From contig JAFZZW010000035.1 in NCBI GenBank assembly GCA_017615615.1, positions 1-51,280 of the forward strand: a stretch of DNA of 51,280 nucleotides, written 5' to 3'. Below, one piece after another: positions 12,938 to 46,419 of the stretch. Origin of the DNA: Bacteroidales bacterium. Lineage in GTDB: Bacteria; Bacteroidota; Bacteroidia; Bacteroidales; UBA932. Position numbers and translations under genes: made by a program. The notes under the pieces were generated by a model. The model saw only the letters and a list, made by a program, of their open reading frames with translations, had not been told where the DNA came from and made no database searches. The first letter of the stretch is position 1. Each line of letters starts with the position of its first letter.

Positions 12938-12949
12938 CCCGAATAAGAT

Positions 12950-14332
12950 TTAAAGGTTAAAACTATACAGTGAATTATATCCGGTATTCTCATCCCAAAC
13001 GTCTTCGTTGGCCAGGCGGATGGAAAAGAATGGATTGTCGTGTATGGTCGCGCAGGGGTCCGGAAGGTTGAGATGCAGGGTCATGGAACCTGCGATGCCT
13101 TCCGGCAGTATGACGGTCTGGTCGATAACGGTTTGCTGGGCCGGCATCCAGTAGCGGGGATCGCTGTCCAGTTTCCAGGTCTTGACGACCTTTCCCGAGG
13201 CATCGGTGAGAACCAGTTCGGCGTCGCGGGGATTCTGAGCCGGCGCGAAGCCGTCGTTACGCAGCGTGAGCTTGATCTGGAAGGGATTTCCCGCCTCGGG
13301 TTCCTTGGTGAACTGTCCTTCTTCCAGGACGTAACGGTAACCAAGGCGTTTGCGGATCTCTTCCATGCAGCCCTCTTCTCTCCAGCGTCTCAGCACGCTG
13401 GGATGATAGCTCACGTTAAGGTATGTGAAGTGATATAGTGCCAGGTCTTTCAGTGCTCCGTTGTAGGTTTCTGCACCGTTGCAGTGGCAGTATGCGGTGA
13501 ATTCACAGGATTCACCACCCATGATGGTGTACAGACTTTCCGCCTGCCAGAATTTGCGCTCGGACGGTCCGTTGAAAGTGCCGACGTCGTTCTGGCTGGA
13601 CAGGTAGCAGTCGTTGTGCCCGGCAAGGCGGGCCTTTGTCGTGGGCAGGTGTGACTCTGCCAGGGTAAGCGTGTCGGCGAGGGATATGCCGAACAGCTTC
13701 ATCTTGAAAGCCGGTGTGCGCAGTTCAATCTGGCGTTCGGCGGGGACTGCATCCAGAAGCGCTTCCACCAGCGCCTTCCTGGAGGCGTTGTCTTTGAAAT
13801 TCTCAGTATAATACCATTCGCCCCAGCTGCCGACAAAACCGGCCTGGACTACCATGATGACGTCATAGTATTCCTGAATGATGGGCTTCAGCTGGGCGAT
13901 ATGTCTGGCCACTTGTTCCGGAGTGGCGTCCCACGGCTTGTCCTTTTCGTCAAAACCGTTGGAGTAGCAGAAGCGGAGGATGCATTTTGCACCGCCGTCG
14001 CGAAGCGACTGGAACTTGATGCGGATTGTCTGTAGATAATCCTCCGCAATATCGGTCGCAACGTAATCCGTGAGATGGAATTCCAGCAAATAAAGCGAAC
14101 GTCCCTGCAGCCTGGCGGCACTGAAGCTCTGGTCGCTGATTGCCCTGCCGTCGGCGGAGAAGACTTCTGCCGGAGCATAAAAGCCTCTTTCCGGATTCGG
14201 GAAATTCTCCTCGGATGGCGTGTATGTGACGGTTACAAGTCCTTCATTTGGATCCGGAACCGGTTTTTCGCAATTGGCCGCAATAAAGAGAAGAACGGCG
14301 GGGGCGAGAAAAATGCTGCTGATTCTTTTCAC
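12950..14332 (-). CDS. DUF4874/DUF4832 lipoprotein
   Basis: 460 aa; the leader ends LLFIAANC, a plausible lipobox. The mature protein begins at the DUF4874 motif NFPNPERGFYAPAE, followed by LLEFHLTDYV, GGAKCILRFCYSNG, QAGFVGSWGEWYYTENF, then the DUF4832 part with GHNDCYLSSQND, YTIMGGESC and a beta-sandwich ending GYNSLYSFNL. It is a paralogue of the C-terminal 430 residues of the 3779-5971 product but lacks that protein's fimbrillin-like head. Two invariant segments (GSWGEWYY, IMGGE) suggest an enzyme active site on a TIM-barrel-like fold; no activity can be assigned from sequence alone. It follows a terminator-like hairpin in the operon. Confidence 0.78.
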   Translation of the reverse strand: MKRISSIFLAPAVLLFIAANCEKPVPDPNEGLVTVTYTPSEENFPNPERGFYAPAEVFSADGRAISDQSFSAARLQGRSLYLLEFHLTDYVATDIAEDYLQTIRIKFQSLRDGGAKCILRFCYSNGFDEKDKPWDATPEQVARHIAQLKPIIQEYYDVIMVVQAGFVGSWGEWYYTENFKDNASRKALVEALLDAVPAERQIELRTPAFKMKLFGISLADTLTLAESHLPTTKARLAGHNDCYLSSQNDVGTFNGPSERKFWQAESLYTIMGGESCEFTAYCHCNGAETYNGALKDLALYHFTYLNVSYHPSVLRRWREEGCMEEIRKRLGYRYVLEEGQFTKEPEAGNPFQIKLTLRNDGFAPAQNPRDAELVLTDASGKVVKTWKLDSDPRYWMPAQQTVIDQTVILPEGIAGSMTLHLNLPDPCATIHDNPFFSIRLANEDVWDENTGYNSLYSFNL

Positions 14333-32781: not shown

Positions 32782-32813
32782 GAAGTCTATCACCGGCGAC
32801 GGCGATAGACTTC
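32782..32813 (-). terminator. Hairpin over the end of the 185-aa gene
   Basis: A 10-bp perfect stem (GAAGTCTATC/GATAGACTTC) with a 12-nt loop spans the last codons and stop of the gene. On the minus strand a run of nine T residues follows about 18 nt later, so this may be a terminator, though the spacing is longer than usual. Confidence 0.4.
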
Positions 32814-33347
32814 ATTGCGACCGAACCTCAGGGCCCGGGTGAACTCCCAGTTCTTCTCGAACTCACGTTTTTGGTCTGCACGTTCCTCGGTGAAGTACTG
32901 GTCGGCCTCGGTGACGTAGCCCAGAGATTCGGTCAGGCCGCTCTCGTCCCAGTTGAACCTGAGCTGTGGATATTCCCGGACCAGGTCTTTGCACTGTGAG
33001 TACATCGCGAAAAACCGTCCCCGCAAGGGGCTGCGAAGGCGGTGACCATATTCGGCGATGTACTCCCAGTTGCGCTCGGTAGCGCTGCCGCAGCACTCGG
33101 CAGCCTGGGCAAACTGGAGGAAAGCATCCTCGATCCGGCCCAAATCGAGCAGCTGCTTGCCGAGTCTTTCGTAAGCGCTGCTTACCTCCAGGAGGTCGCC
33201 TGCCTCGAAGCGTGAGCCATAGCGAATCCTGTCGCCGAGAGCGTCAATCTCACAAAGAGCCTGGTGGATGAAAGCGGTAACCTGACTTGGAATCATGCGG
33301 ACCTGCGAATTGCTGGTCCATGCAACAAGCTGATAAGATTTTGCCAT
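32790..33347 (-). CDS. Unknown 185-aa protein with TPR-like segment and structured leader
   Basis: I do not recognise the family. The protein is soluble, without signal peptide or TM helix. Residues ~55-90 (SAYERLGKQLLDLGRIEDAFLQFAQAAECCG) look like a TPR-type helix pair; the C terminus is very basic (EVYRRRR). Two things suggest regulated expression. A 26-bp promoter-like element at 33509-33534 is shared with four transcription units of the 41-46 kb cluster, and a five-helix structured leader at 33351-33447 ends 3 nt before the ATG. It is therefore probably a distant member of the sigma-C39/MoxR/VWA regulon, perhaps separated from it by insertion of the AT-rich 33.6-40 kb block. Confidence 0.7.
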   Translation of the reverse strand: MAKSYQLVAWTSNSQVRMIPSQVTAFIHQALCEIDALGDRIRYGSRFEAGDLLEVSSAYERLGKQLLDLGRIEDAFLQFAQAAECCGSATERNWEYIAEYGHRLRSPLRGRFFAMYSQCKDLVREYPQLRFNWDESGLTESLGYVTEADQYFTEERADQKREFEKNWEFTRALRFGRNEVYRRRR

Positions 33348-33350
33348 AAC

Positions 33351-33447
33351 TGTAACCTATTTCAATGAACTTCCCGGCCACCCGGTCCCTCGCATCAGGG
33401 TGCACTGCCCCCTGGTACTGGACCTTCGTCCGGGCTGTTCGGTTACA
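33351..33447 (-). ncRNA. Structured 5' leader RNA (possible cis-regulator)
   Basis: Five nested helices can be drawn, all centred on one loop (plus-strand coordinates): 33351-33357/33441-33447 (7 bp, TGTAACC/GGTTACA), 33367-33370/33437-33440 (GAAC/GTTC), 33373-33377/33430-33434 (CCCGG/CCGGG), 33384-33388/33420-33424 (GGTCC/GGACC) and 33396-33400/33410-33414 (CAGGG/CCCTG). On the minus strand the outer 3' arm ends 3 nt before the ATG of the 185-aa gene, so folding could block initiation. I could not match it to a known riboswitch, SRP or RNase P RNA core. The long irregular stem could also be a small stable RNA. Confidence 0.6.
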
Positions 33448-33508
33448 TGTTGTGGCTGCTGTCAGGTTCGCATAAGAATCGCTTCGGGTTGCAAAGTTAC
33501 GATATAAA

Positions 33509-33534
33509 GACGGATAAAGGAAAGAAATCTATCA
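33509..33534 (-). promoter_or_regulatory. Shared 26-bp promoter element, copy 1 (185-aa gene)
   Basis: Minus strand: TGATAGATTTCT, 10 nt, CGTC. It shares TTTATCCGTC with copy 3 (42518-42543). An ordinary TAACTTTG -7 box at 33492-33499 lies just downstream on the same strand and may be a second promoter. Confidence 0.65.
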
Positions 33535-33590: not shown

Positions 33591-34559
33591 ATGAAAGGGG
33601 TTAAACATGCAGTTCTCGTTTTATTGCTGGGACTTTCATTTAATTCTCCTGCAATGACCGACAGTAGCAATCCATTGGAGGAGATACGAGAGTCTACTCG
33701 AAAGATTGAAGATTATACCGGTGGTTTCTGGCATAAGTATAAGCTTTCGAATGATTTTTTCGATACTGTCGCTTTGTTTGCATCTTTGACAGCTATCTTC
33801 ACTTTGATTGCTTTATGCTGGGAATATGAGCGAAAAAGGATAAACGGAGAGTGTCAGAAACAAATGTTGGAAGAGATTATCCGTTATCTTTATACTACTG
33901 ATGTCATCATCGAAGTATTACGGCAGAAGATGGAGGCTCGTTCATGGAGGGCTGTCCCCAATGATACTATTATACGTCGCTTTGCATTTATGGAGCAGGA
34001 CCTGAAGGTGTCTTCATATACCCAAAACTCCAGGAGGTATAATAGGTTTCACGAGTTTACCCTTTTTTTGCGTAACTACAACAGCATGGTGGATTGTGTC
34101 GCCGACCATTTTCAGGACCCTACTGTTGATGTGAAGGTTAAGAAACGGGATCTTATTGAGTTGCAGTTTCGCTCAGCCCGTATCATGGCGAGAATATATG
34201 AGCTGTCCAATTATTTGGGCCTGAAAGTCCGCACGGTCGATGAAATCGTTGAGGATACGTACACAAGTAAGTCTGTGGTCGACAATCAGTATAATACAGT
34301 TAGAGTTCCGGCATTTCCGCTTCGTTTTATTCTGAACGAAATTAATAGCCAGGCAGAAGATGATGATAACGACGAGGAAAATGCCGTGCCGGATTATTTA
34401 GCCCGGTATGTCAAGGGTAAAGACCTCTGCTTTTATCTGCCTAGGGAAGGAAAGTATCGAAAGGATGTTTTCAATCGGGCACGCGTAGCTTATGATATAG
34501 TATTGTTCCCACTGGATGATGATGAAAAGGCCCACAGGCCCGGGGAATATCTTCGATGA
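33591..34559 (+). CDS. Unknown membrane protein, partner of the ADP-ribosyltransferase-like gene
   Basis: 322 aa. A hydrophobic N terminus (KHAVLVLLLGLSFNSPAM) looks like a signal peptide or anchor; a second hydrophobic helix at ~59-77 (TVALFASLTAIFTLIALCW) is followed by a basic stretch and a long helical soluble part (~85-240, for example RYLYTTDVIIEVLRQKMEAR). An acidic segment AEDDDNDEENA lies near residue 265. No family is recognised. Its TGA overlaps the next ATG (ATGA), so the two proteins are made together and may form one membrane complex. Codon use is much more AT-rich than the PUL genes, pointing to horizontal acquisition. Confidence 0.72.
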   Translation: MKGVKHAVLVLLLGLSFNSPAMTDSSNPLEEIRESTRKIEDYTGGFWHKYKLSNDFFDTVALFASLTAIFTLIALCWEYERKRINGECQKQMLEEIIRYLYTTDVIIEVLRQKMEARSWRAVPNDTIIRRFAFMEQDLKVSSYTQNSRRYNRFHEFTLFLRNYNSMVDCVADHFQDPTVDVKVKKRDLIELQFRSARIMARIYELSNYLGLKVRTVDEIVEDTYTSKSVVDNQYNTVRVPAFPLRFILNEINSQAEDDDNDEENAVPDYLARYVKGKDLCFYLPREGKYRKDVFNRARVAYDIVLFPLDDDEKAHRPGEYLR

Positions 34560-36073
34560 ACAGAGTGGTTCTGTTGGTTCTGGTGTTATTGTGTGTAACG
34601 CTGGATGCATTCTCTGCTCCGCAAGTCAAACGGGCGGATACTTATCCGTGGTTGGTCGAGGCCAGAACGAATCTGAACATTAGGTCGGGGCCTGGAACAG
34701 AATACAATAAGATAGGGATGTTTGACAAAGGGGCCAAGTTTTATGCCCTTAATCAAAGGACCAGTTATTGGATAGAAATACAGTATAATGGGCAAAGGGC
34801 TTTTGTGAGTTCTGAATATATCGAGTTCCTGTATCAAGTTACTCCGCAAAGTGTATATGGCGGCAAAGAGCAAAAGCCGCATGGCTCAATAGCCTCTTTT
34901 TTCTCATCTGTATGGGGTGTTGTCAAAGTAATACTCATAATCATCGTTATTCTTATCGTTTTGGCCTTCAAAGAAGAGATTGCTGCATTTGTGGCTGCAA
35001 TCCTTGTATTTGCCGGAATTGGCGCTTTGTTGTTTTGGCTTTTGTTCAACAATGCCAGCCTTGGCGGTACGATAGGCGCAATTATCGGAGTGTTGATGGG
35101 CCTTAGGACAGTGGTTGATTTTGAGATAGTGGGGGGAATACTGTTATACGTACTGGCTTCAGGGTATTTCATTATATCATTCCCGTTCTATGTCTTGAAC
35201 CAGCTGCAGTTCTTTTTGTCAGAACCATGGAGAAATGCCTTTAAATATGATTATTCAAGTGAAAAGAGAAAGCCTGCGTTGCGTTCTACCTTGGAAATCC
35301 TGAAGATTCTGCTGTATATACTCATTACTCCTTTGCGCTTACTGAATGCTGTGTATTACAATATTATAGTTCACGGATTAGTAGTGATTTACGACTTGTT
35401 TATGGCCGTAATGGTGCCATGCAACGAGAAAGAGGGAAAGGGTAGTTTTTGGTTATGGCTTTTTATGCTCCCATGGCGCGTTGTACGTTATTTGGTCATT
35501 CACGGAGCGTTGTCAATAATAGAATGTGTCGTTTGGACAATCATAGATGTCTTTGTTCCTGCCATTACTCTTTATCATGGTACTGATTTGACAGCAGGCC
35601 AGTCGATAGTAGGAAGCCGTAAAAGGAATAAATCATTATCGTGGAAAAGTGGTACATTTACCGCAAGTCAAAGTAACTGGGGAGGTATAGGAGTGTATTT
35701 CGCATCGAGCCGTCAAGTAGCATTGAGATACGCTAACGACCCATATCGTCTTAGCGATTCCAATCCGGTTGTAATTGTGTGCCGTGTTTCTCCAGGGCGC
35801 ATAATCAACTACGCACTGGCTCCATATCAGGTCTACAGGGCGGCGGGTCAAGACGGGAATCCTTCAACATTAAACAGCTATGGTCAGAAGAATCACTATA
35901 CGACGGGAGAATGGTGGAATGGCAGGGGCGGCTATTGGGAATACTGCCTTTTTGACTGGAAAAACTTATATAATAATCGCTGGCGCATCCGTCCGCTATA
36001 CATTTATAACGATAGAACCCATTTTATCCAGCATATAAAAGGGGGAATGGCTCATTGGACGTTCAATATATAG
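34556..36073 (+). CDS. SH3b-transmembrane-ADP-ribosyltransferase-like protein
   Basis: 505 aa with an unusual architecture. A signal-like start (~1-21) is followed by a bacterial SH3 domain (~30-92: ARTNLNIRSGPGTEYNKIGMFDKGAKF, WIEIQYNGQRAFVSSEYI). Several hydrophobic helices lie between ~118 and 335 (VKVILIIIVILIVLAF, AILVFAGIGALLFWLLF, IVGGILLYVLASGYFIISF and others). The C terminus (~338-505) resembles a PARP-type ADP-ribosyltransferase: LYHGT (His341), GIGVYFASS (Tyr381) and GGYWEYCLFD (Glu462), giving an H-Y-E triad. The SH3b head may sense cell wall and the enzyme domain may modify a target. Toxin, defence effector or phage-defence roles are inference. It overlaps the upstream gene by 4 nt. 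Confidence 0.72.
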   Translation: MNRVVLLVLVLLCVTLDAFSAPQVKRADTYPWLVEARTNLNIRSGPGTEYNKIGMFDKGAKFYALNQRTSYWIEIQYNGQRAFVSSEYIEFLYQVTPQSVYGGKEQKPHGSIASFFSSVWGVVKVILIIIVILIVLAFKEEIAAFVAAILVFAGIGALLFWLLFNNASLGGTIGAIIGVLMGLRTVVDFEIVGGILLYVLASGYFIISFPFYVLNQLQFFLSEPWRNAFKYDYSSEKRKPALRSTLEILKILLYILITPLRLLNAVYYNIIVHGLVVIYDLFMAVMVPCNEKEGKGSFWLWLFMLPWRVVRYLVIHGALSIIECVVWTIIDVFVPAITLYHGTDLTAGQSIVGSRKRNKSLSWKSGTFTASQSNWGGIGVYFASSRQVALRYANDPYRLSDSNPVVIVCRVSPGRIINYALAPYQVYRAAGQDGNPSTLNSYGQKNHYTTGEWWNGRGGYWEYCLFDWKNLYNNRWRIRPLYIYNDRTHFIQHIKGGMAHWTFNI

Positions 36074-37738: not shown

Positions 37739-39010
37739 ATGAACCGATTACTCAATACCTTTTCCTACATTAGATTTGTCTTTAATATGGACAAAAAAAT
37801 ACCCATAACTGCTTCAATTGATTTGCTGATTCTAGCATATGCCATTTTTGATTATTTGCATGGGTCTAAGGCTGATAGCAGTCTTTTGGTTTTCATATTC
37901 GTGCTGATTAGTTTGATTTGGCAGCTTTGCAGTTTTTTATCTCATTTTGTTTTTTTGAAAAACATGAAACCAGGAAGCAATTTGGTGTCAAACAACTGTG
38001 AGGTTATAGACTATGAGCGATTGCTAAATGCTCCCTATTATTATGAGAAAGATGATACGTACCAAGTTTTAAGAAATAAGAGAATAGAGGCTCTGCTGCA
38101 AGATCCTAACAAGAAGTTAACGGTGAGTTGCAACCAAACGCACCCTAAATGTGAGTATGTAAAACATTACATTCGAAGCTTCAAGAGTGTGCTTGTTATA
38201 TTTCTGAATCAAAGATGGCGGAACGCCAATCACTTGAACAAGGCGTTTGTAAATGATAAAAAAGTATGTTTCTGCTCAGAGATAGATGTTGGCGAGACTC
38301 AAATGTGTTGTTGTATTTATCGTGGACAATTCTACAATGGCTTTCTAACGAATACTATTTTTTCTAAGTATATAGACGACAACGGTTTTCGTCTTGAGTC
38401 ACCCTACAATTCTATGTGGTACAGTATTCAGCCATACGATAAGTCTTATTTTTCAGATCATGTCGGAGTTTCTACTCTGGTGGTTGATTTCTCAAACGGT
38501 AAGTACTATACGCTACTCCTCAGGCAAAGTATTGGAACTACTCGTTCTCAAGGCCTATTGTGCCCATCAGGCTCAGGCTCTATGGACTGGTCTGACTTTA
38601 AAGCGGAAAGAGACAAAAACGATTTTAAGCAAGCTATTCGATTAGCTGCTGTACGAGAATTAATGGAAGAAACTCAAACTGATAAGGGAAAAGGGAAAAA
38701 GGAGCGCGAAGATCTTAAGAAGAAGCTTATGGATAATACAATAATTGTGGCATATTATCGGGACCTGAAACAAGGCGGCAAGCCTGAATTCGCTTGTGTG
38801 ACAAAGATATGGGAGTTGCCAGAAAAGCAGGAGTTTATTAATAAAGTTGGCGAACAGGCGAAAGAGATTAAGTTCGGGAGCCATGAACGTGTTCTTTTAT
38901 CTCATGAGAGTTGGGAGAGCATACTCAAAGAGGAAGCGGGCAATGGGCTTAAACCATCATTAGCATTAAGTATGAATTATAAAGCGGCGATGGAATATTT
39001 GAAAGTTTAA
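37739..39010 (+). CDS. Two-TM/Nudix-domain protein
   Basis: 423 aa. Two hydrophobic helices at ~22-41 (PITASIDLLILAYAIFDYLH) and ~48-73 (SLLVFIFVLISLIWQLCSFL) anchor it. The middle (~80-240) is unrecognised and cysteine-rich in one spot (VCFCSEIDVGETQMCCCIYRG). The C-terminal domain carries a Nudix box: GSGSMDW then AIRLAAVRELMEETQTD (RELMEE, residues 306-311), with a longer than usual insertion between the glycine and the REL part. Nudix enzymes hydrolyse nucleoside diphosphates linked to another group, such as NAD, ADP-ribose or capped RNA. The epimerase starts 4 nt later, so the two form one operon. Confidence 0.7.
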   Translation: MNRLLNTFSYIRFVFNMDKKIPITASIDLLILAYAIFDYLHGSKADSSLLVFIFVLISLIWQLCSFLSHFVFLKNMKPGSNLVSNNCEVIDYERLLNAPYYYEKDDTYQVLRNKRIEALLQDPNKKLTVSCNQTHPKCEYVKHYIRSFKSVLVIFLNQRWRNANHLNKAFVNDKKVCFCSEIDVGETQMCCCIYRGQFYNGFLTNTIFSKYIDDNGFRLESPYNSMWYSIQPYDKSYFSDHVGVSTLVVDFSNGKYYTLLLRQSIGTTRSQGLLCPSGSGSMDWSDFKAERDKNDFKQAIRLAAVRELMEETQTDKGKGKKEREDLKKKLMDNTIIVAYYRDLKQGGKPEFACVTKIWELPEKQEFINKVGEQAKEIKFGSHERVLLSHESWESILKEEAGNGLKPSLALSMNYKAAMEYLKV

Positions 39011-40097: not shown

Positions 40098-41117
40098 ATG
40101 ACCGACCAGGAAATCATCAAAGGTCTCATCGACAGGGACAACAAGATAACGCAGCAGTTCTTCTTCCAGAACTGCCGGCCTATACTGTATGGCCTGATTG
40201 ATAAGTACTTTCCTCAGGAGAAAGACTACGATGCATATGTGGGCGAGATTTATCTGCATCTGATTGACAAGGATGCAAAAAGGCTTAAACAGTTCAAAGG
40301 TCAATCTTCCCTTGTTTTCTGGCTGCAGATAGTAATTGAGAACTACTTTTTGGATAAAATAAAGCGATCCAAGAAGATAGAAACGGCACCCGATGACAGT
40401 CTATTAAGAAAAGCAAAAGATAAGTTAACCGATATTTCGGCTGATGAGGCAAAGATGGACGTCTGCGCTATACTTGATTACATCGATAACGAAAGCTATC
40501 GGGTAGTGATCCAGAAGCATCTTATCGAAGGGATGGATTTCGACGAGCTCGCAAAGATTACCGGCAAGTCGAAGGATAATCTGTACAATATCAAGTGTCG
40601 CGCTATTAAAGCCCTGAAGAAAGTCGCCAGGATTGCCAGTTCCCATGGAGATGCGCTCTGTGCCGTTTACTGCGAGCAATTCATCCTTCATTGTTTCGGT
40701 ATTCATAAATCGATAAGTGAACTCAAAGAGATTGCCACTTCCAGAGGCTGGCTCAACGAGGAAGGCGCTTTGGTGGATTGTTTGGGCAATACGGCACTCC
40801 ATTATGGCTTGCACGCGGATAAGTTTACAAGTGCAACATTACAGGATATCATTGAATCTATGGCTGCAGGAGGGCAGGTTCTTGCCGCAGTCGATGGGGG
40901 AGAACTGATTGGAGACCCGGTTGACGAGAGCCTGGAGGATGTGTTGGGAGGCGGCATCGTGGACCACTGTGTCGTCATCCTTTCCATCGACAAGGATGAA
41001 GACAAGATTGCACTCTACGACCCCGCTTTTGGCGTTGTTCCTCTCACGGTGACCATCCCTCATTTCCTTGAAGCATGGGCCGATTCCCGGAACTATTGTG
41101 TGATGGTAAGCAAATAA
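40098..41117 (+). CDS. ECF-type sigma factor fused to a C39-like papain-fold domain
   Basis: 339 aa. Residues ~8-92 match sigma-70 region 2 (YDAYVGEIYLHLIDKDAKRL, FKGQSSLVFWLQIVIENYFLDKIKR). Residues ~122-178 match region 4 with its helix-turn-helix (EGMDFDELAKITGKSKDNLYNIKCRAIKALKKV). The C-terminal part (~184-339) resembles peptidase C39-like domains: LCAVYCEQFILHCFG aligns with the usual C-G-P-A-x-x nucleophile helix (Cys188), followed by DHCVVILSIDKDEDKIALYDPAFG with His290 and Asp308. A sigma factor carrying its own papain-like domain suggests self- or partner-cleavage, or ligand sensing, as a switch. It is the natural candidate to read the shared promoter elements around it. The 99-nt gap before it has no clear copy of that element. 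Confidence 0.75.
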   Translation: MTDQEIIKGLIDRDNKITQQFFFQNCRPILYGLIDKYFPQEKDYDAYVGEIYLHLIDKDAKRLKQFKGQSSLVFWLQIVIENYFLDKIKRSKKIETAPDDSLLRKAKDKLTDISADEAKMDVCAILDYIDNESYRVVIQKHLIEGMDFDELAKITGKSKDNLYNIKCRAIKALKKVARIASSHGDALCAVYCEQFILHCFGIHKSISELKEIATSRGWLNEEGALVDCLGNTALHYGLHADKFTSATLQDIIESMAAGGQVLAAVDGGELIGDPVDESLEDVLGGGIVDHCVVILSIDKDEDKIALYDPAFGVVPLTVTIPHFLEAWADSRNYCVMVSK

Positions 41118-41131
41118 TTGTGAAGGATCGA

Positions 41132-41157
41132 TGATAGATTCTCCTCCCGGAAGCGTC
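41132..41157 (+). promoter_or_regulatory. Shared 26-bp promoter element, copy 2
   Basis: TGATAGATTCT, 11 nt, CGTC, followed by TATATA. It begins 15 nt after the sigma-C39 stop and ends 26 nt before the 131-aa gene. Confidence 0.7.
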
Positions 41158-41182
41158 TATATACCGGACCAAAACACAAAAC

Positions 41183-41578
41183 ATGATGCAAAAAAACTAC
41201 AAACTCACTCTCGCGAAGGAAATCGGAAACCTGTGGACCCTCAAGGATATCACCCCGTTTCGCAAGCCTTTCGAGGTTTTTTATGACAAAGACCTGGGGC
41301 GTGATATCGGAAAACTGATGACCATCTGCGCCGCGAATCTTGTGCTGGACACCATTGCCGGAGACGACAGGAGTATGGAGGTTGATCTTAAGCTCTCTGC
41401 GGAGCGTATGAAGCTCCCCAGTTACGTGGAGTTCGAACTTGTACAGCCATTCAATCTCTCGGCGAAGTATCATGTAAACAACTGCCCCGGGCACCCTCAG
41501 ATGATTGCCTGGTTCAATGCTTCCGCCAAAGACATCTTCGCTGGCTTCCCGGCCTTTGCTTACATCAGGAAGAACTAG
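41183..41578 (+). CDS. Small unknown protein, possibly DUF6717-like
   Basis: 131 aa, soluble, no signal peptide. The layout (an N-terminal LWTLKDITPFRKPFEVFYDKDLGRDIGKLM, a middle strand region and a C-terminal GHPQMIAWFNASAKDIFAGFPAFAYIR) recalls the small DUF6717 family, in which a W-x-x-x-D and a late A-P/A-K-x-x-y motif are conserved, but I hold this weakly. It has its own copy of the shared promoter element and converges with the 299-aa gene (8-nt gap). Function unknown. Confidence 0.6.
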   Translation: MMQKNYKLTLAKEIGNLWTLKDITPFRKPFEVFYDKDLGRDIGKLMTICAANLVLDTIAGDDRSMEVDLKLSAERMKLPSYVEFELVQPFNLSAKYHVNNCPGHPQMIAWFNASAKDIFAGFPAFAYIRKN

Positions 41579-41586
41579 AAGGCAAA

Positions 41587-42486
41587 TTACTTGACATTCT
41601 TGTAAATATACTGCGGAAGGTCAAACTTCTCTTCAATCGCATCGATGACTGCTGCGCCCCAACCTGTCCTGCGGATGGGGCGCATGCGGTTTTCTAATTC
41701 ATCGATGGCCATTATGTCTTGCTCCAATCCCATTTCGCCAAGATAGGCGAGCATCCTGCGGACGTAAGGGATGTCGTAGAGGCTGTGGACGAGCTTGTCC
41801 TGCCCATCCTCGTACAGATACTCGCGGACCCATTTCAATACGACTTTTTCTCCTTCGCGGAAGCGGAGCTGCCCGCCGCTGGTCTTCATCACGTATAAGT
41901 ATGTCCAGCCGGGGAGCCTCTCAGGATCTGGCAAGATGCCTGTACGAAGGCAAAGGGTGGCATAGTTGCAACGGCCTTCCAGTTCTTCCAGATGCTCAAG
42001 AATATATTCCCGGGGGCAGTATTTGACGACGACCTTTGCCATCTTCCCGTCCTGAAACATTTCCCACCACAGCTGAACCAGCGGCAGGTAGTCGTCCGTC
42101 CAGAAATCGTCTCCGTACAGTTTGCCGTATATGAAATTACGCTCCTGCTGGCTGCCATATTCCATGAAGGCCATCATAACGGCTTCCTGCTTGTCGTGGT
42201 CAAGCCCGTCGAAGCGCTTCTTGAGCTGACGTTTGGCTTCCACGAATCTGCCGGTGCGATGGTGTACATAGTCATCCAGCACTTCGTCGATGGGGAGGTT
42301 GAGGAGGTGGGGCTTACTGGCTTGCCGGGCACGTTTTTCCCTGTATTTGATTATCGAGCCCGCTATGACGGCCGCCCAGAACGACTCCGATTCGGACAGT
42401 GACTTCAGCGTCTCGTCATCGTATTGCTGCATAAGCGCCCAGGCTACCGTAGGGTGCATCTGTTCAAGCTTTTCAACTTCTATCAT
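41587..42486 (-). CDS. Unknown 299-aa helical protein of the regulon
   Basis: No family recognised. The protein is soluble and predicted mostly helical (for example FDGLDHDKQEAVMMAFMEYGSQQERNFIYGKLYGDDFWTDDY, split by short acidic loops), with tryptophan-rich stretches and a repeat-like organisation that might be HEAT- or TPR-like. It ends DLPQYIYKNVK. Its promoter element (42518-42543) overlaps, on the opposite strand, that of the four-cysteine protein gene at 42578, so the two are switched on from one palindromic site. Confidence 0.65.
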   Translation of the reverse strand: MIEVEKLEQMHPTVAWALMQQYDDETLKSLSESESFWAAVIAGSIIKYREKRARQASKPHLLNLPIDEVLDDYVHHRTGRFVEAKRQLKKRFDGLDHDKQEAVMMAFMEYGSQQERNFIYGKLYGDDFWTDDYLPLVQLWWEMFQDGKMAKVVVKYCPREYILEHLEELEGRCNYATLCLRTGILPDPERLPGWTYLYVMKTSGGQLRFREGEKVVLKWVREYLYEDGQDKLVHSLYDIPYVRRMLAYLGEMGLEQDIMAIDELENRMRPIRRTGWGAAVIDAIEEKFDLPQYIYKNVK

Positions 42487-42517
42487 ATTGACGCCTTAAA
42501 AGAGTTGCACTATTAAT

Positions 42518-42543
42518 GACGGATAAATGATAGAAATCTATCA
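42518..42543 (-). promoter_or_regulatory. Shared 26-bp promoter element, copy 3
   Basis: Minus strand TGATAGATTTCT, 10 nt ending TTTATC, CGTC. The last 10 bases TTTATCCGTC are identical to copy 1 seven kilobases... apart from strand context, on the same strand. It overlaps copy 4 through the perfect 18-nt repeat ATGATAG-AAAT-CTATCAT. Confidence 0.7.
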
Positions 42544-42554
42544 TGATCACAGTC
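42528..42554 (+). promoter_or_regulatory. Shared promoter element, copy 4 (27 bp)
   Basis: TGATAGAAATCT, then 12 nt, then GTC followed by TATATA. The spacing is one base longer than in the other copies and the CGTC box reads AGTC. It lies 23 nt before the ATG at 42578. Confidence 0.6.
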
Positions 42555-42577
42555 TATATAAACGCAATTGTTTCCGT

Positions 42578-43351
42578 ATGATTGAAAAAGTTATCCTGAG
42601 CATCGCACACAGCGACGCGTACACCGATTATCTGATAATGACTGCAGGGTTGACCAACAAGCGTATCATTCCGATTGTCAGTCCTGCCGGCGAGAAGCTG
42701 AAGGCCCAGATGGACGACACCACGCTCGTGCTTCGTTGTTATAACTCCAGAACAGAGTTCACTCCTGGCTGGGACGAACCGGTCATTGCTGATACAGGTA
42801 CAGGATCCGTAAGAATCAATTCCCGTTTCTATCTGGATGATGACGGAAATGTCAATGCGACCAACGCAGGGATAGTTCGCGAAACCATACAGAGAGTGGC
42901 CGCAAATGCCCTTCTGACCGACGAGAACATTCGCGAAGTGTTCAGGCATTATTTCCCGCTGTTATGGAGCAAAAGGCAGCTCATCTACGATAACCCAAAA
43001 CTCTTTTTCGCCGACAGCGGACGCTATGGTCACAGCTACTTCGAGGGCATGCCGATAGGGGTGGTGTTAAAGGCGATGGAAGAGGACCCGAGGACCTTCA
43101 GAATCCGCCTGGCCGGAGGCTGCGGCTGCGGCGCTGATCCGATACTTGTCGACTTCGACAGGGTTTACGGCCAGTTCTGGACTCTCTATACATGGTGTCC
43201 TGCCTGCGGGGCAAGGAAGGAAATCCGGGCCTGGAATTTTCAGCGTATGGACCGGTGTCGCAAGTCTGTAGACGATTCGATGGAATACTACAATAAAGGC
43301 CAGGGGCTCAGTGCCCTCAGCCTGTTGGATGTAATCGATGCGCTGAAGTGA
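42578..43351 (+). CDS. Four-cysteine (zinc-ribbon-like) protein A
   Basis: 257 aa from the ATG at 42578; an upstream in-frame ATG at 42527 lies inside the promoter element and is rejected. It is a paralogue of the 45586-46371 product. Shared features: IEKVILSIAHSDAYTDYLIMTAGLTNKRIIPI, KAQMDDTTLVLRCYNSRTE, HYFPLLWSKRQLIYDNPKLFFADSG, a C-x-C pair (Cys182/184), a CPAC pair (Cys207/210) and a C-terminal GQGLSALSLLDVID. The four cysteines probably bind one zinc. No signal peptide. I do not recognise the family. It ends at a 77-nt inverted repeat shared with the convergent VWA gene. Confidence 0.7.
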   Translation: MIEKVILSIAHSDAYTDYLIMTAGLTNKRIIPIVSPAGEKLKAQMDDTTLVLRCYNSRTEFTPGWDEPVIADTGTGSVRINSRFYLDDDGNVNATNAGIVRETIQRVAANALLTDENIREVFRHYFPLLWSKRQLIYDNPKLFFADSGRYGHSYFEGMPIGVVLKAMEEDPRTFRIRLAGGCGCGADPILVDFDRVYGQFWTLYTWCPACGARKEIRAWNFQRMDRCRKSVDDSMEYYNKGQGLSALSLLDVIDALK

Positions 43352-43426
43352 GATTTCTCCACGCGCTCCGCTTGGTCGAAATGACAGGAACTCCTGATGC
43401 CATTTCGAGCGAAGTCGGGAAATCTC
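43350..43426. repeat. 77-nt palindromic intergenic repeat
   Basis: GAGATTTC at the left end and GAAATCTC at the right end, with inner arms GTCGAAATGACAGG and CATTTCGAGCGAAG that also pair. It exactly fills the gap between two convergent stop codons and should fold as a bidirectional terminator. The GAGATTTC...CATTTCGAGCGAAG pattern is typical of dispersed intergenic repeats known from many bacterial genomes. Confidence 0.8.
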
Positions 43427-44513
43427 AGCGAAGATTCATCGTACAGACCCTGCCGGACTTCTTCATCCAGCCGGAGTGCTGCCGGTAGGCGTACTCGCTT
43501 TCACACACCCACAAGATGTTGGCATTGAACCCGACCGGTATGACCGGCTCGGGCGCTTCGCCGTCGGTCAGAATCACCAGCCCGTCCACATCCCGCTCCG
43601 CGGCATAGTCGACGGGCGCCTGGAAATCGGTGCCGCCGCGACCTACCGCTATGGTCTCCCTGAGCGCGTGTTTAAGGGCCTGTGTGGCTGTCACGACCGT
43701 CTCGAACTGAATCACTTCTATCTCCGTGATGCCGTATTTGAAGGCGCTGTTTACCACGCCCAGGAAGTAGCTGATGGCGTCGCTGGAGATGGATCCGCTG
43801 ACGTCCAGAGCTATTATCAGGCGGCTGGTGAACTGGCGCACGGAGCCCATATTGTCGAAGCCCGTACGGCGGGATGGGCGCATCCTGGTGAGATGCCGCT
43901 CCTGCGACAGCACCTGCGCCCGGAAGCCGAAGAGCACCTTCTTCCAGTCGATGGAGGCGCGGGTGGATGCTTTGACGCGTTCCGCCAGGTCTCCTGCGAT
44001 GGAACCCCAGTCCTTGATGCCGTCGATGAGTCCGTTGATCATTGCAATCTGCAGCGGGTCGTCTTCCCATAGTTCGGACAGGTCTGTGTTGGCATCCCGC
44101 TCGTCGCTTCCTTCGCCGGTCTGCTCGGCCAGGCGGGCGTAGGTCTCGTAGGGCAGCCCGGGCTTGAATCCATAGTCGGCCGGAATCTTCATGTTGAATC
44201 GGGCGAACGGGTAGTTGTCGGCCACGGTGAGGTTGCTGCCCACGGCGATGGCCTCGGCGCTGCAACCGTCCGGACGGCGCTCGTAAGGGTGCTTGAGCAG
44301 GATGCGGATGGCCTCCGTCTTCAGCGCCTCTTCCAGTGCGGCGTCGGACATCTCCCGCACGAAATCGGGGTTGTACTCAATCCGGCCGCAGCCGCTTCGC
44401 ACCGGGCACTTTATCTTGTCGTTGGGTACCACCTCATGCGAGCAGATGACGACGAAGAGCGCAGGCTCGCTGACGAACCAGCGCTCGAATATCTTGTCGA
44501 ACCGTGCCCTCAT
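43425..44513 (-). CDS. VWA-domain protein with degenerate DUF2201-type metallopeptidase head
   Basis: 362 aa. The C-terminal half is a von Willebrand A domain with a complete MIDAS: DVSGS (237-241), GGTDF (293-297) and LTDG (315-318). The N-terminal ~190 residues align in layout with the DUF2201 putative metallopeptidase domain, but the HExxH site is replaced by TEAIR (66-70) followed by KHPYERR, so catalysis is unlikely. Residues 36-42 contain two cysteines (CPVRSGC). The gene follows the MoxR gene with no gap. MoxR and VWA proteins commonly act together as ATP-driven, metal-dependent assembly or remodelling pairs. Confidence 0.82.
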   Translation of the reverse strand: MRARFDKIFERWFVSEPALFVVICSHEVVPNDKIKCPVRSGCGRIEYNPDFVREMSDAALEEALKTEAIRILLKHPYERRPDGCSAEAIAVGSNLTVADNYPFARFNMKIPADYGFKPGLPYETYARLAEQTGEGSDERDANTDLSELWEDDPLQIAMINGLIDGIKDWGSIAGDLAERVKASTRASIDWKKVLFGFRAQVLSQERHLTRMRPSRRTGFDNMGSVRQFTSRLIIALDVSGSISSDAISYFLGVVNSAFKYGITEIEVIQFETVVTATQALKHALRETIAVGRGGTDFQAPVDYAAERDVDGLVILTDGEAPEPVIPVGFNANILWVCESEYAYRQHSGWMKKSGRVCTMNLR

Positions 44514-45593
44514 CTACTTTATGCTTTTGACGTAAAGGACCAGAGTCATCGTGAGCACCTGGCACTCCCGGGCGATGAATGCAACCGCATTGGGATAGGT
44601 CTGCTGCACATAGAGGTTGGCAAAGTGGGCGGCGGCCTCCTTGCGGTTCTTCACCAGATAGTCGAAGTAATCGTTGAGGTTCTTCTTCACGTCTGCCTTC
44701 TTTTCGGCCGGCACTTTCTCCACCTCAAGCAGACGGAAGACTCCATCGTTGACTATGGACATCTCGTGCAGGGAGTATGGGGCGAGCTTCTCCTTCACCT
44801 TCCCGAAGTTGTAGAGGATGTCCTTGCCGGACACGACCTTCTTGTTGTTGACGGCCCCCATGAATGCGACGGTGGCTTTGGCTCCAACGACGGAGGCGAT
44901 TACCTTCTGGTGGAGGGTGGTTAGCACGTCGGCGCCCTTGATGATGTCGGACACACGCTTCCATGCGCGGCGGTCGGGAGTTTTGTCCAGACCGGTGTCT
45001 TCGTTCTCCTTGGCATCGGCGTCGCGGTCCAGCCAGAGGCTGTTTCCCTCGATGAAGCCGATGACGCGGGGATCGACCCCTTCGCGCTTGGCCCAGAGGA
45101 GCCATTCCTGCACGGTGGGCTGGAAGTTGATGATGTTGAAGCGGCTCACGAGTGCCGGGTCCAGGTCGGTCAGCTGATACTGTTCGCCCTCGTTGACTGC
45201 GCTGATGATGCGGCTGCCCTCAGGGAGCTGGCGTCCGGCGAGCTTACGGTTGAGGGCCAGGTCCATGATGGTCTGGAGAATCTCCGGACGGGCGCGGTTG
45301 AGCTCGTCGAGGAAGAGGACGATGGGCTTGCCGTCCAGCGGGAACCAGTACGGCGGCATGAACTCGGTCTTGCCGGTCCGTTCGTTCTTGGAAGGAATGC
45401 CGATGAGGTCGCCCGGGTCGGCCATCTGGCCAAGGAAGAGCGCCACAACGGGCATGCCCTGCTTGGAGAAGTATTCGGTTAGGATTTCGGACTTGCCGAT
45501 GCCGTGGCGTCCCACCAGCATCAGGTTGTGATGCGCCGGAGTCATCTCCAGCATCTGCATGAGTTCGGTTGTGCTTACTCGGATATTAGACAT
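44514..45593 (-). CDS. MoxR-type AAA+ ATPase
   Basis: 359 aa. Walker A GRHGIGKS (28-35), Walker B VLFLDELNRA (92-101), sensor-type NEGEQYQLTDLDPALVSRFNII and a helical C-terminal lid. MoxR proteins remodel or activate partner proteins together with a VWA protein. The start overlaps the end of the upstream four-cysteine gene by 8 nt and its stop abuts the ATG of the VWA gene, so the three are one operon controlled by promoter element copy 5. No signal peptide; cytoplasmic. Confidence 0.9.
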   Translation of the reverse strand: MSNIRVSTTELMQMLEMTPAHHNLMLVGRHGIGKSEILTEYFSKQGMPVVALFLGQMADPGDLIGIPSKNERTGKTEFMPPYWFPLDGKPIVLFLDELNRARPEILQTIMDLALNRKLAGRQLPEGSRIISAVNEGEQYQLTDLDPALVSRFNIINFQPTVQEWLLWAKREGVDPRVIGFIEGNSLWLDRDADAKENEDTGLDKTPDRRAWKRVSDIIKGADVLTTLHQKVIASVVGAKATVAFMGAVNNKKVVSGKDILYNFGKVKEKLAPYSLHEMSIVNDGVFRLLEVEKVPAEKKADVKKNLNDYFDYLVKNRKEAAAHFANLYVQQTYPNAVAFIARECQVLTMTLVLYVKSIK

Positions 45594-46371
45594 AGTTCGA
45601 TATTGAAAGTTGCTCGATAACGTCGAAAAGTGTGAGGGCGCTCAAGCCCTGTCTGCGGTCGTAGTCACGGTAGGTGGATATCAGACAGGATTCATAACCG
45701 CCGATGTAATCCGTGCCGACTTCCCGGCGGGAATGGCAGCGGGGGCACCAGGTGTAGAGAAGATAGCTGTTGTCATACCGCCCCTCATGATTGGTGTCGA
45801 AATCAATGATAAGAGGTGGTTCTTCGCAGTTGCAGCCTTTCTTTCCGGCTCGGAACAGGTCTTCGTTTTCTTCGATGGCCTTGAGCAAGACGCCGAGAGG
45901 GAAGTATGACCAGTCGGAGCTGTTGAACATGCCGGTTTTAGCAAAGAAAAGGTGTGGATTGTCATAAATCGTCGGCCTTTTCCTCCAGAGGAGAGGGAAG
46001 TTCCGCCGGTAATACTCGTGAAGGTTGTCTTCGGAGTAGAGGAAACAGTCGAGCTTTTCCTGGATTGTGGTTCGTGCCAGTTCGGCCTGGGTGGCGTTGA
46101 CGGCCCCGTCCTCAAGGAGATAGCGTTTGGAAAGCAGCTGAATGTTGTGCGTCGTCGCATCATATGACGCAACGCTGTCCTCTGGTCTCGGTTCCCGGCG
46201 TGAATTGTAGCATCCGAGCACCAGTGTGTTGATGTCTGATTGTGCTTTGATTTCGGCGGGCGTAGGGTCAATAATCGGAACGATCCGCTTGTCCGTCAGC
46301 CCGGCAGTAAGGAAAAGATAGTCTGTGTAGTCGTCGCTGTGGTGGATATTGAGGATTATTTTGTCGGTCAT
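45586..46371 (-). CDS. Four-cysteine (zinc-ribbon-like) protein B
   Basis: 261 aa, paralogue of the 42578 product with the same order of motifs: DKIILNIHHSDDYTDYLFLTAGLTDKRIVPI, KAQSDINTLVLGCYNSRRE, RNFPLLWRKRPTIYDNPHLFFAKTG, C-x-C (Cys180/182), CPRC (Cys209/212) and QGLSALTLFDVIEQL. It is the first gene of the operon with MoxR and VWA and overlaps MoxR by 8 nt. Linkage suggests that protein B, and perhaps A, is a client or adaptor of the MoxR-VWA machine. Family unknown to me. Confidence 0.72.
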   Translation of the reverse strand: MTDKIILNIHHSDDYTDYLFLTAGLTDKRIVPIIDPTPAEIKAQSDINTLVLGCYNSRREPRPEDSVASYDATTHNIQLLSKRYLLEDGAVNATQAELARTTIQEKLDCFLYSEDNLHEYYRRNFPLLWRKRPTIYDNPHLFFAKTGMFNSSDWSYFPLGVLLKAIEENEDLFRAGKKGCNCEEPPLIIDFDTNHEGRYDNSYLLYTWCPRCHSRREVGTDYIGGYESCLISTYRDYDRRQGLSALTLFDVIEQLSISNYV

Positions 46372-46393
46372 AGAACAGGTGTTGCAGAATAAA

Positions 46394-46419
46394 GACGCTT
46401 CAGTCTGCAGAATCTATCA
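46394..46419 (-). promoter_or_regulatory. Shared 26-bp promoter element, copy 5
   Basis: Minus strand TGATAGATTCT, 11 nt ending GAAG, CGTC, then TTTATT. It has the same box sequences and spacing as copy 2, preceded in both by GA. It drives the protein B-MoxR-VWA operon, 23 nt before the start codon. Confidence 0.7.

Follow-up and report, generated by a model that had tools for sequence, protein, structure and literature searches.

Which factor would read a two-part sequence element that recurs ahead of several genes of one Bacteroidales locus, and how might that factor be controlled? The locus lies in a stretch of 51,280 nucleotides (contig JAFZZW010000035.1 of assembly GCA_017615615.1; the whole stretch is called the window below), where the element, TGATAGATT-N13-CGTC, stands ahead of the genes of a 185-aa, a 131-aa and a 299-aa protein, and of the four-cysteine protein B, whose operon continues with a MoxR-type AAA+ ATPase and a VWA protein; the gene of an extracytoplasmic function (ECF) sigma factor fused to a papain-like domain lies among them. 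An earlier, sequence-only reading had described these genes as a self-contained, sigma-controlled MoxR/VWA system. The reading of the element as a putative ECF promoter is well supported by comparison with related genomes, and the sigma-papain protein probably reads this promoter, with its C39-like C-terminus as a putative on-board regulator. The arrangement suggests a dedicated, so far undescribed response switch.

The element in the window and in related genomes

The window contains exactly four matches to TGATAGATT-N13-CGTC, against 0.01 expected, a number reached by none of 100 dinucleotide shuffles, and the four copies that the sequence-only reading had placed are thereby confirmed in position and strand (Table 1). 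Throughout the source genome (G000; 1.93 Mb, or 1,926,932 bases, in 92 contigs, 72% complete), the pattern is found only at these four places and its reversed control nowhere; the 30-bp form TGATAGATT-N13-CGTCTNTA, with up to two mismatches, still returns only these four, against one match of the reversed control. When one mismatch is allowed, the half-site TGATAGAT alone is matched 30 times in the window where 32.6 matches are expected and, since it is not enriched, what stands out is the bipartite element. A leave-window-out matrix was trained on 13 copies, all from other genomes; in matrix scores over the whole window the four copies rank 1 to 4 (24.2-33.0), a fifth site ranks fifth (12.9), and the next position reaches 9.7. 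The fifth site, previously counted as a weaker copy, thus keeps its place by rank, but neither of its boxes is intact (TGATAGAAA and AGTC stand instead of TGATAGATT and CGTC), and with its 5' half it forms an arm of the dyad TGATAGAAATCTATCA, which it has in common with the copy at 42518-42543. It falls upstream of protein A if that gene starts at 42578 and not at 42527, which is most likely, because the former aligns with the start of protein B; an orthologous promoter of protein A was sought for comparison, and none was found.

Relatives were drawn from a family scan of 398 genomes and a genus search of 300 genomes for the sigma, both of which sample larger groups evenly and have genomes in common. 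The strict pattern of the family scan, TGATAGATT-N13-CGTCTNTA, with the reversed pattern as control, was composed after the window and two further loci, L006 and L008, were known, the latter two having been retrieved via protein homology. L008 is a record of a Bacteroidales metagenome-assembled genome; L006 (later L035) represents genome G113, L033 represents G333 and L059 represents G300, and the genus search yielded G758 (L092), G769 (L093) and G828 (L094) as further holders of the sigma. The strict pattern was found at 12 places in seven of the 398 genomes, and its control in none. Six of these places lie ahead of 185-aa family genes (G000, G346, G300, G269, G315 and G333), two ahead of 131-aa genes (G000, G333) and two ahead of protein B (G000, G113), and the remaining ones ahead of a CpsB/CapC-type phosphatase (G346) and a calcineurin-like phosphoesterase (G300), each of which adjoins the 185-aa gene. 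In G346, G269 and G315 the 185-aa homologue starts 473-476 nt past the element, with a small open reading frame (ORF) in between.

Among the loci fetched by homology, G113 has the element ahead of protein B and a one-mismatch copy ahead of MoxR, and G300 has a one-mismatch copy ahead of the 131-aa gene; in L008, an exact element precedes the 131-aa gene, a one-mismatch copy precedes the gene of a 1000-aa AAA+ protein, and the copy upstream of the 185-aa gene is degraded (CATC, three mismatches). L033 carries a 299-aa orthologue, checked by translation and tblastn, whose element copy has a 14-nt spacer. Three positions score above the cut in G828, ahead of the 131-aa gene (exact), the AAA+ gene (CGATAGATT, CGTC) and the 185-aa gene (TGATAGAAA, TGTC, about 470 nt away). 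The best position of the G758 locus, with two mismatches, is ahead of the 131-aa gene (TGATAGAAT, TGTC), and elsewhere in that genome a one-mismatch copy lies between the AAA+ and 185-aa homologues; the two-mismatch scan of the genus-search genomes gave one reversed-control match, in G758. Weaker sites (11.2 to 18.9, the lowest of them within the range of control loci) stand ahead of AAA+, 185-aa and phosphoesterase homologues in G113 and G300.

The sequence-only reading had named absence of the element upstream of orthologues as the outcome that would speak against it. With the window counted, the element is present upstream of all six 131-aa orthologues, of both 299-aa orthologues and of both protein B genes, and the claim that a conserved ECF-type element precedes several transcription units is upheld. 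The 131-aa gene is the most consistent target gene. With a matrix trained on the copies of other genes and sites sought within 150 bp of the start, its sites score 21.4-32.9. For random 150-bp windows (n=5985) the median is -8.9 and the 99th percentile 6.9; 11 of these random windows reach 21.4, the lowest observed 131-aa score, and may include true sites, since they were drawn from element-bearing loci. The six 131-aa promoters are 96% identical in the -35 box and 83% in CGTC and the five next bases, against 30% in the spacer, 35% in the 20 bp upstream and 57% in the 15 bp downstream, so that the two boxes have been kept while the neighbouring DNA changed. As a feature of sequence, the element is real, conserved and specific. 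This pattern of identity also bears on the idea that the copies are the remains of a dispersed repeat or mobile element, which the several near-identical copies in one 13-kb stretch might recall; only the boxes are alike, the 131-aa orthologue spacers and upstream flanks being 30-35% identical, no relative of the sigma was found among 50,697 phage records at an E-value of 1e-4, and the sole match in 72,556 plasmid records, a C39-family peptidase of an Anabaena plasmid, covers 45% of the query at 33% identity. A repeat origin is rejected as extremely improbable.

Read as a promoter, TGATAGATT-N13-CGTCTwTA would belong to a dedicated ECF sigma factor, with TGATAG as the -35 and CGTC as the -10 box (TGATAG-N16-CGTC), a spacing that is the usual ECF geometry; a CGT-type -10 box is typical of ECF target promoters, although not strictly defining. 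The perfect dyad at 42528-42543 and divergent site pairs in several relatives would instead suit the operator of a dyad-binding transcription factor (TGATAGA-nn-TCTATCA), an explanation that we regard as very unlikely and reject, since only that one site is a dyad, the remaining window copies having no adjacent second arm, and since the second box is conserved at a spacing of 13 nt (rarely 14 nt) from TGATAGATT, with T[TA]TA next in most of the 18 copies tabulated. The second box is CGTC in 17 of these 18 copies and CATC in one, an invariance that is partly by construction because the table, compiled by hand, consists mostly of strict matches; TGTC variants are found in G758 and in the weaker sites. 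Each of the 18 copies is followed by a gene of the system that reads the same way as the copy. The gap from the -10 box to the ATG is 22 (protein B), 25 (131-aa) and 31 nt (299-aa) in the window, 24 (protein B) and 25 nt (MoxR) in G113, and 30 and 27 nt for the 131-aa genes of L033 and L008; longer gaps are those of the AAA+ gene (43 nt), the G346 phosphatase (84 nt) and the 185-aa genes (51-476 nt).

The 185-aa gene calls for a separate treatment. Housekeeping promoters of Bacteroidota have the form TTTG-N19-21-TAnnTTTG, and in most copies ahead of 185-aa genes a TAnnTTTG box closely trails the element, so that the element could be regarded as a part of such an ordinary promoter. As a full explanation this is rejected, and appears even less probable than the operator, for it fits the 185-aa gene only; the other target genes are without TAnnTTTG in the stretch past the element, in G300 an insertion separates the element from a distinct TTTG-N20-TAAATTTG promoter, and 12 of 20 leader loci have TAnnTTTG without the element. 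These loci come from a search with a model (R1; 82 model positions, built from the nested fold of six sequences) of a conserved leader RNA between the element and the 185-aa gene, which is present in 20 of the 398 family genomes, including all seven with a strict element; 22 leader loci were returned, and 20 entered the promoter count after L085 (partial) and L073 (too little upstream) were excluded. TAnnTTTG is found in 20/20 and a mini-ORF at the same place in 15/20, 13 of the latter being of the form M-x-T/S, and the element is found in 8/20, seven within the 125 nt examined and that of G300 past the insertion. Because both the TAnnTTTG box and the element stand ahead of the conserved leader, the 185-aa gene most likely combines a basal housekeeping-type promoter with an added ECF promoter, and the earlier proposal that the element drives this gene holds as to the presence of the element, but has to be shared with a housekeeping-type box that is kept in relatives without it.

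The fused sigma factor as the putative reader of the element

Of the sigma-70 regions, ECF sigma factors have only 2 and 4, within some 170 residues. The sigma part of the fused protein matches TIGR02937 over residues 22-175 (E 3.1e-16, 59.4 bits, cut-off 42.9), the Pfam model of sigma region 2 is above its cut-off in the L033 orthologue (26.6 of 24), and that of region 4 is below it in both the window and L033; together with the C39-like C-terminus, this bears out the presence within the locus of an ECF sigma factor fused to a papain-like domain, as had been read from the sequence. No publication among the matches listed concerned the TGATAGATT-N13-CGTC element or, for Bacteroidetes, the fusion of a sigma factor with a papain-like domain, which is weak evidence of novelty.

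The full-length fused sigma is present in four of the 398 family genomes (G000, G333, G300 and G113), and all four carry the strict element. After removal of G000 and G113, which shaped the pattern, the chance probability for the other two is about 1e-4, by a hand computation that ignores kinship. When the genus search and L008 are added, seven of eight holders of the fused sigma have a copy of the element, which is exact in G000, G113, G300, G333, G828 and L008, has one or two mismatches in G758, and is missing from G769. The pairing of the element with this fused sigma is likely, with G346, G269, G315 and G769 as exceptions, and the same co-occurrence, with the same exceptions, points to a putative activation of these promoters by the sigma.

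These exceptions, with several other observations, weigh against the fused sigma as the reader of the element. The strict element is present in three of the 394 genomes without a full-length fused sigma (G346, G269 and G315), where a search at an E limit of 0.01 returned only a weak partial match in G315 (26% identity) and none in G346 and G269. G162 has an element with a 14-nt spacer, and the fused sigma is reduced there to a remnant of about its last 38 residues, beside a gene resembling ADP-ribosyltransferases (ART). Conversely, G769 (90% complete) has the fused sigma, yet no element was found genome-wide at up to two mismatches, and none near the sigma gene. Positive autoregulation is typical of ECF sigma factors, and the sigma gene of the window has no element upstream, the best position there ranking 277th by matrix score in the window; AAC is typical of the -35 box of ECF promoters, and the -35 box here, TGATAGATT, is without that signature. 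A second position in the G758 locus (score 18.1) has no assigned gene, and the sites of 14.4 (G113) and 11.2 (G300) are no better than the chance positions of control loci (up to 14.5). The genome counts do not represent independent events, because the genomes are related, and to this is added the selection behind the 18-copy table.

Some of these points would be explained if the element were a sigma promoter read by another ECF factor, the fused sigma being merely a frequent neighbour; besides the three genomes with the element alone and G769 with the fused sigma alone, such an explanation could draw on a second related sigma in the source genome (C84:36952-37404, L041), which is 38% identical over residues 2-152 and ends a few bases from the contig end. 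We consider it unlikely. The strict element accompanies the full-length fused sigma in 4/4 genomes of the family scan, and holders found by other routes have exact copies (L008, G828) or one- and two-mismatch copies (G758), whereas in ten loci of unfused relatives or of the second sigma (L009, L036-L041 and L060-L062) no position exceeds 14.5 with a matrix that gives 20.9 and 29.9 to the 131-aa sites of G758 and G828, respectively.

The papain-like domain as a candidate regulator

Among 14 aligned papain-domain proteins, the catalytic-type Cys and His are present in 14/14, and the third residue is Asp in 11/14 and Asn in 3/14; in a set of 13 members Cys7 and His109 are invariant and Asp127 nearly so. 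Peptidase_C39_2 was matched by 11 and Peptidase_C39 by nine of these 13 members (E <=0.1), with best E-values of 3.6e-7 and 5.7e-6 against the two models. On the opposite side of the balance, the copy of the window stays under both Pfam cut-offs (20.0 of 22 and 16.4 of 24), and in a profile search of the Protein Data Bank (PDB) the top match of the domain, a C39-like peptidase, is partial, with an E-value of 0.0075, and is followed by chance-like matches to green fluorescent protein (GFP). With the single domain, phmmer matched mostly GFP-like proteins of the PDB, by way of one short stretch, and these were likewise taken as chance.

The position of the domain relative to the sigma differs between two branches. 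In Barnesiella sp. An22 (L009) and in other genomes of the order and family (L036-L040 and L060-L062), a similar sigma is unfused, and a gene of its own next to that of the sigma encodes the papain domain. In the Barnesiella protein (L009:10551-11708), this domain is accompanied by an N-terminus with a weak likeness to zf-HC2 (17.4 of 22.2 bits), by a zinc ribbon that stays under its cut-off and by a C-terminal RyR domain (PF02026, E 4e-30), and the RyR stretch is common in alignment to seven of nine unfused papain proteins, including those of L036, L039, L040 and L060-L062. The main reason to take the domain as a regulator is that it accompanies the sigma of one branch in trans and that of the other in cis. 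The unfused relatives thus resemble an ECF factor with a separate anti-sigma factor, in that the sigma lies beside a papain protein, in the one tested with a zf-HC2-like N-terminus, whereas in the window sigma and papain domain share one polypeptide, which has no anti-sigma-like stretch.

The extension of ECF41 factors is SnoaL_2-like, and these factors are the closest worked case. In ECF41, a fused C-terminal regulatory domain has both positive and negative effects and the promoter is TGTCACA-n16-CGTC (PMC3426412), and the likeness extends to the lack of an adjacent anti-sigma gene, CGTC at -10, the 16-nt spacer and the neighbouring targets. The system of the window differs in its host, a member of the Bacteroidales, in its several and other target genes in place of one transcript, in the C39/papain-like nature of its extension, and in a -35 box of TGATAGATT and not TGTCACA; neither an ECF41-type extension nor the TGTCACA box was found for the window sigma.

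From sequence, we infer the role of the promoter, its cognate sigma, the regulation by the papain domain in cis and the output as follows. The cognate factor would be the sigma-papain fusion, in which the C39-like cysteine-peptidase domain would occupy the place of the separate anti-sigma factor of other ECF systems, and most likely silence the sigma in cis, its release being triggered by a peptide, by a ligand or by self-cleavage. Freed sigma would switch on the 131-aa, 299-aa, protein A and B-MoxR-VWA units, and would add a second, inducible start to the 185-aa gene. From what is known of the families of the AAA+ and MoxR-VWA modules, the probable output would be the remodelling of proteins or complexes, driven by AAA+ ATPases under stress, attack or conflict.

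An ECF sigma factor with an on-board regulator and a local regulon is of a known kind, and the surprising part is the papain-like regulator. Class I anti-sigma domains lie beside 6% of Bacteroidetes ECF factors, against an average of 32% across phyla (PMC7406223), and a regulator of another type would be a surprise in a phylum where such neighbours are rare. A broader proposal can be made tentatively, with a little less than even confidence, namely that papain-like C39 domains may constitute a novel class of regulators for the ECF factors of Bacteroidales, in place of class I anti-sigma domains, either as separate anti-sigma-like proteins (papain, often RyR-like) or fused to the sigma, with the fused branch commanding, through TGATAGATT-N13-CGTC, a regulon of AAA+ remodelling modules. 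For the control of most ECF factors in Bacteroidota, a sigma with a conserved cysteine-peptidase-like domain offers one answer that can be tested directly. The promoter motif is specific enough for candidate targets to be listed by sequence; and as the 131-aa, 185-aa, 299-aa, A, B, large AAA+ and MoxR-VWA families would be tied to one switch, the inducing signal, once found, would give a first handle on all of these uncharacterised families.

Target genes and neighbouring features

Table 1. Features of the locus, with positions in the window unless another locus is named
Feature	Position	Strand	Remarks
ECF sigma (residues ~1-178) fused to C39-like papain domain (~182-339)	40098..41117	+	TIGR02937
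Element copy 1, TGATAGATTTCTTTCCTTTATCCGTC	33509..33534	-	upstream of 185-aa gene; housekeeping-type -7 box TAACTTTG a few bases beyond
Element copy 2, TGATAGATTCTCCTCCCGGAAGCGTC	41132..41157	+	25 nt ahead of ATG of 131-aa gene
Element copy 3, TGATAGATTTCTATCATTTATCCGTC	42518..42543	-	31 nt ahead of ATG of 299-aa gene
Weak fifth copy, TGATAGAAATCTATCATGATCACAGTC	42528..42554	+	23 nt ahead of likely ATG of protein A (42578)
Element copy 4, TGATAGATTCTGCAGACTGAAGCGTC	46394..46419	-	22 nt ahead of ATG of protein B
185-aa protein family (YQLVAWT...GQVRMIP start)	32790..33347	-	no Pfam or NCBIfam family at E 0.1
Conserved leader RNA, between element and 185-aa gene	33362..33445	-	model R1
Leader RNA with mini-ORF (ATG, two codons, stop; ATGCGAACCTGA), mini-ORF first	33362-33475	-	also in L064-L084
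131-aa protein	41183..41578	+	no Pfam, NCBIfam or PADLOC family at E 0.1
299-aa protein	41587..42486	-	no Pfam or NCBIfam family at E 0.1
Protein A, 257 aa, four cysteines	42578..43351	+	paralogue of protein B, 47% identity
Protein B, 261 aa, four cysteines	45586..46371	-	first gene of B-MoxR-VWA operon; no Pfam family at E 0.1
MoxR-type AAA+ ATPase, 359 aa	44514..45593	-	AAA_5 E 7.6e-10, 39.4 of 22 bits
VWA protein, 362 aa, DUF2201	43425..44513	-	PF09967 E 7e-14, 52.5 of 26.4 bits
Membrane protein, SH3 domain and C-terminus like PARP-type ADP-ribosyltransferases	34556..36073	+	SH3_3 1.6e-11; PARP 0.068, below cut-off
SH3-membrane-ART-like relatives	L035:3506-5032; L008:7827-8984; L094:4969-6354; L086		beside sigma or remnant

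The putative regulon has the 131-aa and 185-aa genes as its most recurrent members, joined in relatives by a large AAA+ protein; neither G769 nor G346 yielded a 131-aa protein. The AAA+ protein of the relatives has three AAA modules, and phosphoesterases of two kinds are further additions there. The sigma gene of L008 follows the AAA+ gene that bears the one-mismatch site, and this AAA+ protein was not found in the source genome, which, at 72% completeness, may still carry it. The MoxR and VWA genes of the window are adjacent on the minus strand, as in other MoxR-VWA pairs, and are 94% (MoxR) and 89% (VWA) identical to those of G113, protein B being 56% identical. The window and G113 are the only places where the pair was seen together with the element; MoxR-VWA is a variable and not a core member of the putative regulon and, since gene content varies among genomes, the system cannot be called self-contained, as had been thought from the window.

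Nor is sigma control of such a pair new, as the RavA-ViaA MoxR-VWA pair depends on sigma-S (PMC3893208). Both cases join a MoxR-type AAA+ ATPase and a VWA partner to an alternative sigma factor, and they differ in the DUF2201-type VWA, the leading four-cysteine protein B and the ECF-type promoter found here. The ternary conflict systems of the vWA-MoxR kind described by Kaur et al. (2020; PMC7159879) are similar in having MoxR, vWA and a further protein in one operon, and the words sigma, ECF and DUF2201 are absent from the main text of that paper. The bpMoxR model remains below its cut-off for the window protein (14.9 of 27 bits), and no third component of the ternary kind (VMAP, iSTAND or beta-propeller) was found with the Pfam and PADLOC libraries, protein B being without a Pfam family; PADLOC gave no match for A, B, MoxR or VWA. 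A weak PADLOC match of the 299-aa protein to Cas4 (E 0.045) was taken as chance.

The fold of the leader RNA is uncertain. The fold of 20 sequences gives three separate hairpins, in contrast to the nested fold derived from six; a pair with both bases replaced is seen once in each of the first two hairpins, in four sequences for the first and in one for the second, and the z-scores of single-sequence folds range from -0.33 to -2.65. At gathering score, Rfam has no match to the leader in five related leader loci, and the stretch of the window has only chance-level matches. No relatives of the 185-aa protein were found in viral contigs by pattern scan. A second leader RNA copy with a 185-aa homologue, without an intact element, is present in G269:C14 (L084).

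The SH3-membrane-ART-like protein, or a shorter form, adjoins the sigma in L008, G113 and G828 and the sigma remnant in G162; in the window its gene is 4 kb from the sigma gene and has no good site upstream by matrix score. A 423-aa protein (window 37739-39010) has a Nudix-like box by eye (AVRELMEETQ) and matches nothing in Pfam at E 0.05. Near the sigma in L033 lies the gene of an M48-type peptidase that includes a TerB domain (12075-13286), and genes similar to it by blastp lie near the sigma in L009 (11745-12626), L036 (11056-11937) and L038 (10402-11283). Near the sigma genes of G758 and G769 are proteins of 205 aa (L092:1675-2292) and 203 aa (L093:11647-12258) that look alike by eye, and that we take, also by eye, to resemble NYN-domain nucleases.

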